Origin: Halanaerobium saccharolyticum
GTDB taxonomy: Bacteria > Bacillota > Halanaerobiia > Halanaerobiales > Halanaerobiaceae
Assembly (NCBI RefSeq): GCF_003053565.1
Contig: NZ_QAXS01000011.1
Coordinates: forward strand, 1-64,000
Direction: 5' to 3'
DNA: 64,000 nt
Shown: positions 4,130 through 47,809 of the stretch, piece by piece
Layout: every line of letters begins with the position of its first letter
Position numbering within the stretch: position 1 is the stretch's first letter
Made by a program: the position numbers and the translations under genes
The notes under the pieces: model-generated
Databases searched by the model: none
Told to the model about the DNA's origin: nothing
The model's input: the letters and a program-made list of their open reading frames with translations, nothing else

Positions 4130-4205
4130 TGGTGGTGGAAGACAGAATTGAACTGTCGACACGTGGATTTTCAATCCACTGCTCTACCGACTGAGCTATT
4201 CCACC
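4130..4205 (-). tRNA. tRNA-Phe (GAA)
   Basis: This is a complete 76-base cloverleaf with an encoded CCA end. The acceptor stem is GGTGGAA/TTCCACC. The anticodon loop TTGAAAA gives anticodon GAA. It is the last gene of a three-tRNA operon and is followed directly by the operon terminator. Confidence 0.97.
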
Positions 4206-4226
4206 TAATATGTAATTAATTAAAAA

Positions 4227-4303
4227 TGGTTGCGGGGACCGGATTCGAACCGATGACCTCCAGGTTATGAGCCTGACGAGCTACCAGACTGCTCTACCCC
4301 GCG
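4227..4303 (-). tRNA. Initiator tRNA-fMet (CAT)
   Basis: This is a 77-base cloverleaf with encoded CCA and anticodon CAT. Two initiator marks are present: an unpaired C1/A72 at the acceptor end and a purine-pyrimidine A11:T24 pair in the D stem. The three anticodon-stem pairs next to the loop read AGG/CCT rather than the usual GGG/CCC, so pair 29:41 is A:U. It is the middle gene of the tRNA operon. Confidence 0.93.
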
Positions 4304-4310
4304 CTATGAA

Positions 4311-4386
4311 TGGTGAGCCATGGAGGATTCGAACCTCCGACAACCTGATTAAAAGTCAGGTGCTCTGCCAACTGAGCTAATGGCCC
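4311..4386 (-). tRNA. tRNA-Lys (TTT)
   Basis: This is a 76-base cloverleaf with encoded CCA. The acceptor stem GGGCCAT pairs with ATGGCTC, and the anticodon loop CTTTTAA gives TTT. It is the first gene of the operon, close behind a strong promoter. Confidence 0.97.
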
Positions 4387-7873: not shown

Positions 7874-7885
7874 TCAATTATCAAA

Positions 7886-7998
7886 TCTTCTTTATTCCGG
7901 ACTGTACCGTCGGTACTGGAATTTCACCAGTTCAGCTGAAGCTCGTGGACTATACCACCGGTTTGGAATTGCTTTTAAGCTCACCAGACCCTGAAGAT
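7886..7998 (-). ncRNA. FMN riboswitch (RFN element)
   Basis: The minus strand shows the conserved RFN blocks in order: CAGGGTCTGGTG, ATTCC-ACCGGTGGTATAGTCCACGAGC, GGTGAAATTCCAGTACCGACGG, AGTCCGG and AGAAG. The terminator that follows and the riboflavin transporter gene complete a standard FMN-off transcriptional switch: FMN binding favours termination and lowers RibU synthesis. Confidence 0.96.
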
Positions 7999-8018
7999 AA
8001 TATTTTTTTGTCAGTTTT

Positions 8019-44727: not shown

Positions 44728-45738
44728 TTATAATTCAAGGTCTTTTTCGAGATATTCAATAATATCAGTAATATTATTAACTTTTAAAAGTTCTAAGTCA
44801 GCTGCATATTCAGAGGCTTCTTGATAATTATCTTCTGGTACAATAAATAAATCAACACCGGCCTCTTTAGCTGCCATAATCTTATATTTAACTCCATCTA
44901 TCCGACCGATTTCGCCGTCAAGACTAATTGTTCCTGTACCAGCTATTCTTCTGCCGCCGGTAATATCATCCGGAATTAATTGATTATAAATTTCCATACT
45001 AAAAACACTGCCAGCTGAAGGACCAATAATATTTTCTGTTTCAAAATTGACCTCACCCGGAATCTTATAATCCAGTCCTTTGGAGCTGATTAAAACACCA
45101 ATTGAAGGATTTCCTTCATTACCCTCAAGTTCAAGGGTCTCTAAATCGAATTTCAGCTCTTCTCCCTCGCGAATAACTGTTATTTCAACTACATCACCTA
45201 TGTTTCGGTTTTTAATAATATTAACTGCATCAGCTGCCATTTCAACTTTTTTGCCATCAACAGCTGTAATTAAATCACCTTTTTTTAGGTTATTGTAGGC
45301 GCTTCCATTTTCCATTACCTCTACAATTTCTGCACCTTCTCCAGAAACTTCAACCTGATAGCCAGCCTGTCTAAAAGCAACAGCCTGAGCCTGAAGTTTA
45401 CTTTCTTCCATCAGTTCAGCCATTAATTCTATATATTCATTCATCTCCATATTTTCCGGCAGCTGTTCAGAAATAGCTGTTAATTCCTTATCTTCAGGTG
45501 CAAAAAGTGAAATATAGAAATAATCCCAGGCCACTGCTCTTCTGCTGCTAACCGCCGTCAGCAAAAACTCTCCCTGGTTTTCATAGCCATCTTTTACCTC
45601 AATCATCGGCGAAAGTTCAGCTGCAATTCCAGGCTCCATAACCTGATAGGGCACCGGTATAAAATGACTGATCACAAATAAAATAAATATTATTCCTATT
45701 AACCGAGAATAAAACTTTTTTAATCTTTTATTTCTCAT
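44728..45738 (-). CDS. sepM: PDZ domain and S16 (Lon-type) serine protease, SepM/YlbL-like
   Basis: This 336-residue protein has one N-terminal membrane helix (about 10-28), a PDZ domain (about 120-200) and a Lon-type proteolytic domain with catalytic serine in GPSAGSV and lysine in VKYKIMAAKEAG. YlbL/SepM proteins act outside the cytoplasmic membrane. It stands next to the YlbM homologue as in Bacillus. Substrate unknown. Confidence 0.92.
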   Translation of the reverse strand: MRNKRLKKFYSRLIGIIFILFVISHFIPVPYQVMEPGIAAELSPMIEVKDGYENQGEFLLTAVSSRRAVAWDYFYISLFAPEDKELTAISEQLPENMEMNEYIELMAELMEESKLQAQAVAFRQAGYQVEVSGEGAEIVEVMENGSAYNNLKKGDLITAVDGKKVEMAADAVNIIKNRNIGDVVEITVIREGEELKFDLETLELEGNEGNPSIGVLISSKGLDYKIPGEVNFETENIIGPSAGSVFSMEIYNQLIPDDITGGRRIAGTGTISLDGEIGRIDGVKYKIMAAKEAGVDLFIVPEDNYQEASEYAADLELLKVNNITDIIEYLEKDLEL

Positions 45739-45884: not shown

Positions 45885-45913
45885 TTGACATAAATTACAG
45901 GCTGGGTTATAAT
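45885..45913 (+). promoter_or_regulatory. Promoter of the lysine riboswitch transcript
   Basis: A perfect TTGACA (45885-45890) and a perfect TATAAT (45908-45913) are separated by 17 bp. They lie about 60 bp upstream of the aptamer. Confidence 0.9.
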
Positions 45914-45967
45914 TTTATATGAAATTGAATATTGAGAATTGATTAGCTTCTGCTAATCATAATAAAT

Positions 45968-46160
45968 ACCTCATCTAATTGATGAGGTAGAGGAGCAGAA
46001 AAAATTAGTAATTCTAAACTCAAGCTTGAATCCAGTTTATATTTAGAATGAAAGGGTTTTCTGCCGAAGTGGGTTTTTTAGGATTCAAAAATCCCGCTGG
46101 GGCTGTACATAAAATGTACAGAACTGTCATAGTATTTTACTATGTTGTGCTATCTCAGAA
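45968..46160 (+). ncRNA. Lysine riboswitch (L box)
   Basis: Conserved L-box blocks appear in order: GAGGTAGAGGAGC, TTAGTA, GAAAGGGTTTTCTGCCGAAG, GGGGCTGTACAT with its hairpin partner ATGTACAG, ACTGTCAT, and GTGCTATCTCA closing P1 with TGAGGTAG. An extra upstream segment ACCTCATC (45968-45975) is complementary to the P1 5' strand. A terminator follows. The downstream gene is an NhaC-family transporter, a known lysine-riboswitch partner. Confidence 0.95.
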
Positions 46161-46186
46161 TCATGATGAGGCGATTTTTGCTATTA

Positions 46187-46213
46187 ACCCGGCATATCGC
46201 CGGGTATTTTTTA
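46187..46213 (+). terminator. Riboswitch expression-platform terminator
   Basis: ACCCGGC and GCCGGGT form a short GC-rich stem with a T-rich tract after it. GGCGAT (46170-46175) can instead pair with ATCGCC (46196-46201), giving a candidate antiterminator. It controls read-through into the transporter gene at 46268. Confidence 0.85.
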
Positions 46214-46267: not shown

Positions 46268-47809
46268 ATGGAAAGTTATGGTATTATTTCTCTGCTGCCG
46301 CCACTACTGGCTATCATTTTGGCCTGGTGGAGCAAACAGGTTGTTTTGTCTTTATTTTTAGGAGTTTTTGCTGGTGCATTGATTACAAATGGATATAATC
46401 CAATCTTTGCTTTTATGCATACTCTGGATGATTATATTTTAGCTTCACTTGCTGATTCCTGGAATGCCGGTATTATTTTATTTTTGCTGGCAATGGGAGG
46501 CATGATCGGGATAATTAATAAATCAGGCGGGATTATTGCTATCGGTGAATATGTTGCCGAAAAGGCAAATTCTGTACTTAAAACTCAACTTGCAGCCTGG
46601 TTTATGGGAGTTCTGATCTTTTTTGATGATTATGCAAATACCTTAATTGTTGGGAACACAATGCGCCCAATAACTGACAAAATGAAAATTTCAAGAGAAA
46701 AACTGGCTTTTATAGTTGATTTAACTGCTGCTGCCGTTTCAAGTATTGTGCCAATTTCAACCTGGATTGCTTTTGAAGTTGGAGTAATTAGAGATGGTTT
46801 TGATTCTCTCGGCCTGGAAATGAATGCTTATGGAACCTTTGTGCAAACTATACCTTATCGTTTTTACAGTATTTTTGCACTTGGTTTTGCTTTAATAATT
46901 ATCTTTACTGCCAAAGATTTTGGACCGATGTTAAAGGCAGAAAAAAGAGCCCGCTCAACCGGGGAAACTTTGAGACCGGGATCTACTCCGATGGTTTCTC
47001 AGGAAATGGAAGAAATTGAACAGCCAGAAGGAAAAAGTTTTACCTTTAGCAATTCATTTTTACCTATTATTGGAGTTATTCTAATTACTCTAATTGGCCT
47101 CTGGTATAATGGTGGAGGTTTGGAAGCTGGAACTTCAGTTAGAGATGCTTTTGGTAATGCTGATGCAAGTATTGTTCTTCTCTGGGCAGCCATTACAGGT
47201 AGTTTTATCGCAGGAATTCTTTCTTTTTCTAAAGGGATTCTCAATATCAGTGAAACTGTTGACGGCTGGATTGATGGAGCAAAGTCAATGTTTATTGCCT
47301 GTTTAATCCTTGTTTTAGCCTGGTCTATCGGTAGTATTACAGATGACTTAGGAACTGCAAATTACTTAGTAGGTATTTTAGAAGGAAACATTATTCCAGA
47401 AATTGTTCCGGTGATGATTTTTGCTTTTTCTGCATTTATTGCCTTTACAATTGGAAGTTCCTGGGGAACTGTAGCTATTGTAATGCCGCTTGCTATTCCT
47501 CTTGCAAACTCAATTGGAATACCAATGCTGCCGACAATTGCTGCTGTCTTAACAGCAAGTGTAATGGGAGACCACTGTTCACCAATTTCTGATACAACTA
47601 TCATGTCTTCTACAGCCTCTGCTGTTGACCATATGGATCATGTCAGCACTCAGATGCCTTATGCTTTAACAGTTGGACTGGTAGCTGCTTTATTCGGCTT
47701 TTTACCAGCTGGCTTTGGACTGTCATCTGTTTACCTATTACCTTTAGGACTTATCGTTCTTTACCTGATTGTTAGTTTCTTTGGTAAAAAAGCAGAAGAA
47801 GTCATTTAA
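46268..47809 (+). CDS. NhaC-family transporter, probable lysine transporter (LysW type)
   Basis: This 513-residue polytopic membrane protein of the NhaC Na+/H+ antiporter family has about 11-12 helices, the FFDDYANTLIVGNTMRP motif and a C-terminal GDHCSPISDTTIMSS motif. By sequence alone it would be called an antiporter. The lysine riboswitch directly upstream argues for lysine uptake, as proposed for LysW proteins. It is a single-gene unit with a GGAGG ribosome-binding site and a terminator after it. Confidence 0.9.
   Translation: MESYGIISLLPPLLAIILAWWSKQVVLSLFLGVFAGALITNGYNPIFAFMHTLDDYILASLADSWNAGIILFLLAMGGMIGIINKSGGIIAIGEYVAEKANSVLKTQLAAWFMGVLIFFDDYANTLIVGNTMRPITDKMKISREKLAFIVDLTAAAVSSIVPISTWIAFEVGVIRDGFDSLGLEMNAYGTFVQTIPYRFYSIFALGFALIIIFTAKDFGPMLKAEKRARSTGETLRPGSTPMVSQEMEEIEQPEGKSFTFSNSFLPIIGVILITLIGLWYNGGGLEAGTSVRDAFGNADASIVLLWAAITGSFIAGILSFSKGILNISETVDGWIDGAKSMFIACLILVLAWSIGSITDDLGTANYLVGILEGNIIPEIVPVMIFAFSAFIAFTIGSSWGTVAIVMPLAIPLANSIGIPMLPTIAAVLTASVMGDHCSPISDTTIMSSTASAVDHMDHVSTQMPYALTVGLVAALFGFLPAGFGLSSVYLLPLGLIVLYLIVSFFGKKAEEVI

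Follow-up and report, generated by a model that had tools for sequence, protein, structure and literature searches.

A strand upstream of the aptamer as a proposed switching element in lysine riboswitches of Halanaerobium and other Bacillota

In the L box of Bacillus subtilis lysC, the textbook lysine riboswitch (RF00168), the 3' strand of helix P1 acts as the switch by making an antiterminator with downstream sequence, a model accepted in outline for that leader (PMC6614840, in the accessible part of its text). Strand-exchange riboswitches rely on mutually exclusive helices with a common switching sequence, which usually lies in the first helix (available portion of PMC10907184). In the HMP-PP (thiS motif) riboswitch, the aptamer sits within a stem-loop followed by a T-run, and the ligand prevents the terminator, turning expression ON (PMC6478431, as excerpted). 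A 2026 covariation study of full riboswitches, lysine included, extended the RF00168 aptamer from its 3' end only, according to the accessible sections of PMC13273304. The leader described here resembles the lysC type in its aptamer (117.8 bits against the full model), in having P1 as the contested helix and in its OFF logic via a terminator, which is assumed to be the same. It differs in two respects: the strand that would report P1 formation is placed 5' of the aptamer, and the contested strand is the 5' rather than the 3' strand of P1. The extra upstream strand that would relay the signal also distinguishes it from strand-exchange riboswitches in general; as a consequence, the relay as proposed would leave aptamer helix and expression platform without a common base. 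In a literature search, no title or abstract described lysine riboswitches as having a switching strand upstream; Garst 2012 and the founding papers on the L box lay outside this search, and an earlier notice is possible. The arrangement is a variant of a known riboswitch and apparently undescribed in the searchable literature.

The locus lies in a 64,000-nucleotide stretch of Halanaerobium saccharolyticum DNA, the whole of which is referred to below as the window. The upstream strand is called U and its downstream partner D:

45885-45913, + strand: sigma-70 type promoter, TTGACA-17-TATAAT, 12 of 12 consensus positions
45940-45959, + strand: leader hairpin 5' of U, predicted in all constrained folds
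45967-45975, + strand: element U, TACCTCATC, proposed upstream switching strand; includes CCTCATC at 45969-45975
45980-46160, + strand: lysine riboswitch aptamer (L box), RF00168, 117.8 bits
45981-45990, + strand: 5' strand of P1 with GATGAGG extension, common to the 5' hairpin and P1
46150-46156, + strand: 3' strand of P1, CTATCTC
46165-46171, + strand: element D, GATGAGG, partner of U in the proposed OFF state (7 Watson-Crick pairs)
46170-46175, + strand: antiterminator 5' arm, GGCGAT, sharing 2 nt with D
46187-46205, + strand: intrinsic terminator, ACCCGGC-ATATC-GCCGGGT, then ATTTTTT
46196-46201, + strand: ATCGCC, located in loop and 3' arm of the terminator, partner of GGCGAT in the antiterminator
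46268-47809, + strand: controlled gene, encoding a transporter of the Na+/H+ antiporter (NhaC-type) family (PF03553, E 1.2e-63)

The aptamer spans the full RF00168 model (1-182) with a score far above the Rfam gathering threshold of 30 bits and, by this match, is a lysine riboswitch; lysine would be the expected ligand. P1 as modelled joins 45984-45990 to 46150-46156, and GATGAGG (45981-45987) overlaps it by GAGG. From this promoter, a perfect match to the consensus, the transcript would start near 45920 and include U. Comparable -35 and -10 elements are found upstream of U in 30 of the 31 loci of the window's order. A second L-box of the same genome, upstream of a lysA-like gene (identified from the start of its protein), also bears U. 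The product of 46268-47809 is a probable lysine transporter, in view of the riboswitch and of PMC11477304, the accessible text of which places the PF03553 family behind L-boxes elsewhere and calls lysine transport by it a speculation. All NCBIfam matches of this protein are far under their cut-offs; that to the Tet(35) model reaches 200 bits against a cut-off of 750, which makes the name tetracycline efflux pump unsuitable. The divergent gene on the other side of the leader (44728-45738, - strand) encodes a SepM-like protein with PDZ and Lon-type protease domains (157 of 200 bits, under the NCBIfam cut-off). Elsewhere in the window, the - strand carries an FMN riboswitch (7881-8002, RF00050, 91.4 bits) that precedes a terminator-like hairpin and for which no upstream switching strand was seen by eye, as well as a group II intron match (1889-1962, RF00029, 42.6 bits against 40) and a cluster of three tRNA genes (4133-4386).

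A preliminary description of this leader correctly placed CCTCATC at 45969-45975 and GATGAGG at 45981-45987 and 46165-46171, and the pairings that it proposed can all be drawn. U (45967-45975) can pair with 45981-45989 in a 9-bp 5' hairpin, which contains CCTCATC and the GATGAGG of P1 with their flank, or with D in a helix of 7 bp. The second GATGAGG overlaps GGCGAT, which in turn can form six pairs with ATCGCC inside the terminator (local structure -12.7 kcal/mol) so that the terminator would be blocked. The model energy of the leader is -88.0 kcal/mol with 5' hairpin and antiterminator, -92.3 kcal/mol with 5' hairpin and terminator, and -91.8 kcal/mol with P1, the U:D helix and terminator. 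P1 with an antiterminator that keeps five U:D pairs comes to -87.9 kcal/mol, 3.9 above the latter structure. When P1 and the terminator are retained and U is held single, the energy is -81.9 kcal/mol; by this model, the U:D helix would be worth about 10 kcal/mol. In a transcript extending to 46201, hairpin plus antiterminator (-86.8) is ahead of P1 plus U:D (-81.7) by 5 kcal/mol, and in one extending to 46203 the lead is about 2 kcal/mol (-88.0 versus -86.1). In the model, therefore, the two states are near in energy, as a switch requires. The unconstrained fold of the leader includes both the 5' hairpin and the terminator. Since the full-length fold is predicted to prefer the terminator even in the presence of the 5' hairpin, read-through would have to be kinetic, decided during transcription. 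In the window, the U:D helix and the antiterminator arms have just 2 nt in common, and their mutual exclusion would rest on those two bases.

We propose that U, lying 5' of the lysine aptamer, governs termination through a relay, a reading to which we assign a probability of roughly 0.7. In the absence of lysine, U, being made first, would pair with the 5' strand of P1 and P1 would stay open; D, being free, would then engage the terminator in an antiterminator, and transcription would continue into the transporter gene. In the presence of lysine, P1 would form and U would be displaced; the released U would capture newly transcribed D, and with D withdrawn from the antiterminator the terminator would form. 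We infer the state favoured by lysine, the order of events, termination itself and the OFF direction; the basis shown by sequence and comparison comprises the elements, their capacity to pair, the conservation of U, the association of every U with the D of its own locus and of D with its terminator, and, in loci with U, the lack of excess pairing between the 3' strand of P1 and D.

The U arrangement is widespread among L-boxes of Bacillota and not peculiar to this leader. No more than 40 nt ahead of the aptamer, the motif CCTCA occurs in 31 of 31 L-boxes of the order Halanaerobiales (1.4% in shuffles), in 7 of 35 from the rest of the class (0.6%) and in 67 of 89 from the rest of the phylum (2.2%), these 89 being the best-scoring of the matches listed and hence no random sample. 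A helix of at least 8 bp with the 5' strand of P1 can be formed in 31 of 31, 11 of 35 and 50 of 89 loci, respectively (the 89 again as the best-scoring matches listed). The preliminary description had called the switch not usual for the L box, which is apt relative to the textbook model but, taken as a statement of rarity, is at odds with these counts. L-boxes were found in 21 of 38 genomes of the order (31 of 32 matches used, one being dropped as under cut-off), in 37 of 59 genomes of the class (35 of 36 matches outside the order used) and in 120 of the 199 genomes of the phylum sample, from which the 89 loci outside the class were taken. The match dropped from the class is the second copy of a tandem in genome G241 (contig 38, 140190-140596), where L095 and its neighbour are lysine aptamers about 80 bases apart, possibly a tandem riboswitch. 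A pattern scan of GTDB genomes yielded at least 80 loci, 69 of them L-boxes, of which 67 were used; L223, which ends at a contig end, and L188, with too little upstream sequence, were left out. As these loci were picked by U, they are uninformative on its frequency. Among the matches listed, all 69 L-boxes carry titles that name Bacillota or one of its members (Bacillus, Paenibacillus, Listeria, Shouchella, Kurthia, Caldanaerobacter, Halanaerobium and other genera), and the 11 of 80 listed loci that are not L-boxes are all from other phyla. Thirty-seven genomes contain more than one sampled L-box; in 14 of these, L-boxes with U occur alongside others that lack it.

Comparison of sequences across Bacillota shows each U to be associated with its own D. 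For every U, the duplex energy with the D of the same locus was compared with the energies given by D elements from other loci. Own pairs were favoured with z -10.7 (n=131, near-duplicates removed), as against -2.2 for a control with reversed U; at stricter redundancy limits the values were -7.0 versus -1.3 (n=73) and, for the 42 most diverse loci, -6.6 versus -1.0. Much of this signal sits in and beside the core. The hairpin-loop bases alone give a weak signal (z -3.2, -2.5 and -2.1 versus -1.8, -1.9 and 0.3 with reversal, for 131, 73 and 42 loci), and bases 5' of U none that is specific to the own partner (z -1.4, reversed -1.1). An extended U:D helix, suggested by eye in leaders such as L012, which pairs over 12 bp via bases 5' of U, was thus discarded for want of an own-specific signal overall. 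D could be anchored in 60 of the 131 leaders; a fixed-register count over these showed more pairing than expected at several positions of the loop (p 0.02-0.06), a weak result as the anchor is often uncertain, and no excess at most positions 5' of U. Taken individually, only 44 of 131 loci have a U:D helix better than with shuffled downstream sequence at p 0.05, with 6.6 expected. The U:D and P1 3'-strand tests on 131 loci used a set cleared of L216, which has no L-box, and of the misplaced 3' end of L164; both are included in the sets for the 15-locus test (below), the test of bases 5' of U, the T-run filter, the D:terminator test and the overlap count. A further test pairing reversed U with reversed D was disregarded, since complementarity is retained and it provides no control.

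Within the window's order U hardly varies, and covariation there is accordingly absent or marginal. The U:D duplex test gives p 0.146 over all 31 loci and p 0.003 for the 15 non-redundant ones. In the alignment of the order, U:D is paired in 82.6% of cells, compared with 40-56% when slid, but among the 31 loci it shows no compensatory change and does not surpass shuffles. The 5' hairpin is paired in 99.6% of the 279 cells, with a single compensatory change, in L025, whose CCTCATT pairs with AATGAGG; its D has T for G at the matching place. Covariation of CCTCATC, which the preliminary description had offered as a check on its switch, consequently failed to appear in the nearly invariant core (31 rows; one compensatory change for the hairpin, none for U:D). 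Such covariation as exists concerns bases around the core and becomes visible only across Bacillota.

D also appears to belong to its terminator. A local terminator is present in 147 of the 172 loci of the pool; in 102 loci with one, the D:terminator pairing of own over swapped partners gives z -12.6, with a reversed control of -2.4. The bases of D used with U and with the terminator overlap by at least 3 nt in 99 of the 102 (median 7; 2 in the window). The main partner of D is the 5' half of the terminator in 33 of these loci and the 3' half in 16, so the geometry of the antiterminator would differ between loci. In some leaders, U and D may make the terminator themselves. An automatic filter picked out 16 leaders whose U:D helix leads into T-rich sequence; L216, among them, is no L-box. 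For nine loci, representing eight distinct leaders, the search revealed no terminator-like stem but U:D: no other terminator was found within 160 nt in L067, L068, L071, L087, L129, L143, L135 and its duplicate L238, and L230, the last spotted by eye. Judging by eye from the protein starts, the gene behind each of L067, L068, L071 and L087 is a transporter gene of the kind seen in the window; here U and D, flanking the aptamer, would make the stem directly. These nine loci recall the HMP-PP riboswitch in that the aptamer lies within a stem-loop, now of U and D, followed by a T-run. They differ from it in aptamer and size, and in that lysine would assemble the terminator rather than prevent it. 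The leader in the window, which has an ordinary terminator, is not of this terminator-embedded kind. Overall, the three-way switch advanced in the preliminary description finds partial support: the pairings fit a switch, and comparative support for U with the 5' strand of P1, for U:D and for D with the terminator comes from outside the window's order. The structure is real, and the proposed switch is a good reading of it.

Were the textbook model to apply to these leaders, the P1 3' strand would do the switching and U would be incidental. This seems improbable to us, since the loci with U, taken as a group, show pairing between the P1 3' strand and the sequence beyond it in 6 of 131 cases, no excess over the 6.6 expected from shuffles, and the strand's own downstream sequence fares no better than that of others (z 0.5). 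The near invariance of the P1 3' strand leaves the swap test with low power, a problem of which the shuffle test is free. L-boxes without U do fit the textbook model: their P1 3' strand pairs downstream in 19 of 50 loci (2.5 expected), or 15 of 46 non-redundant ones (2.3 expected), and the sequence at U's place in 4 of 50, or 6 of 46 (2.3 expected), at or slightly above chance. That the excess is confined to loci without U points to two L-box platforms, the textbook one and the upstream-strand relay, and this contrast is the strongest sign that U takes the switching role of the P1 3' strand. We give even odds to the broader view that Bacillota lysine riboswitches are of two mechanistic kinds, with the upstream-strand kind the commoner in the present sample and, in its simplest form (before this transporter gene in a different family of the class), with U and D themselves making the terminator around the lysine-bound aptamer. 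The upstream-strand kind would have been largely missed because aptamer models and constructs begin at P1.

An equally improbable explanation is that U has no role beyond the 5' hairpin, which would compete with P1 and adjust the sensitivity to lysine, the likeness of D to the 5' strand of P1 being a by-product. The hairpin is indeed the better conserved pairing, at 99.6% of cells with its one compensatory change, and its helix of at least 8 bp is frequent in all three samples (31/31, 11/35 and, among best-scoring matches listed, 50/89). Yet D follows U (z -10.7 to -6.6), and the nine loci in which D directly precedes a T-run, with no other terminator found, leave U as the only evident partner of D. 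Somewhat less probable still is that the U:D helix of the window, followed by CGATTTTTG, makes a first terminator-like or pausing stem ahead of the ordinary terminator. In all six transporter leaders of this type from Halanaerobium, GATGAGGCGA is present and a T-run comes after it, and for the same gene relatives elsewhere in the class rely on U:D and a T-run alone; against this, stem and T-run are three bases apart in the window, the run is short, a strong ordinary terminator lies downstream, and two terminator stems per aptamer are called unprecedented in the accessible text of PMC6478431. A chance repeat, or a role for D as Shine-Dalgarno-like site of a leader peptide, is very improbable, although D of several relatives reads GGAGGTGAT and resembles a ribosome-binding site. 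Of the four copies of GATGAGG on the + strand of the window two are in this leader, and the chance of one within the 31 nt of 46157-46187 is about 0.002 (0.0016 from the frequency in the window; 172 of 100000 shuffled segments). This figure and the conservation across genera stand against a chance repeat, and the reading frames after D, which differ among loci by eye, against a leader peptide; both ideas were rejected. In Bacilli, moreover, D takes another form (GATGCGG, GATGAGG) than a Shine-Dalgarno site.

If the relay is correct, many lysine riboswitches use a strand that is left out of families of the RF00168 type and of constructs trimmed to P1, and work on affinity, kinetics or drug targeting with such constructs would miss half of the switch. 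An expression platform could then be split across both flanks of an aptamer, and searches confined to downstream sequence, as in the accessible sections of PMC13273304, would be blind to the upstream strand. Leaders that have only the U:D helix would represent a very simple natural design, in which binding of the ligand closes a terminator around the aptamer.
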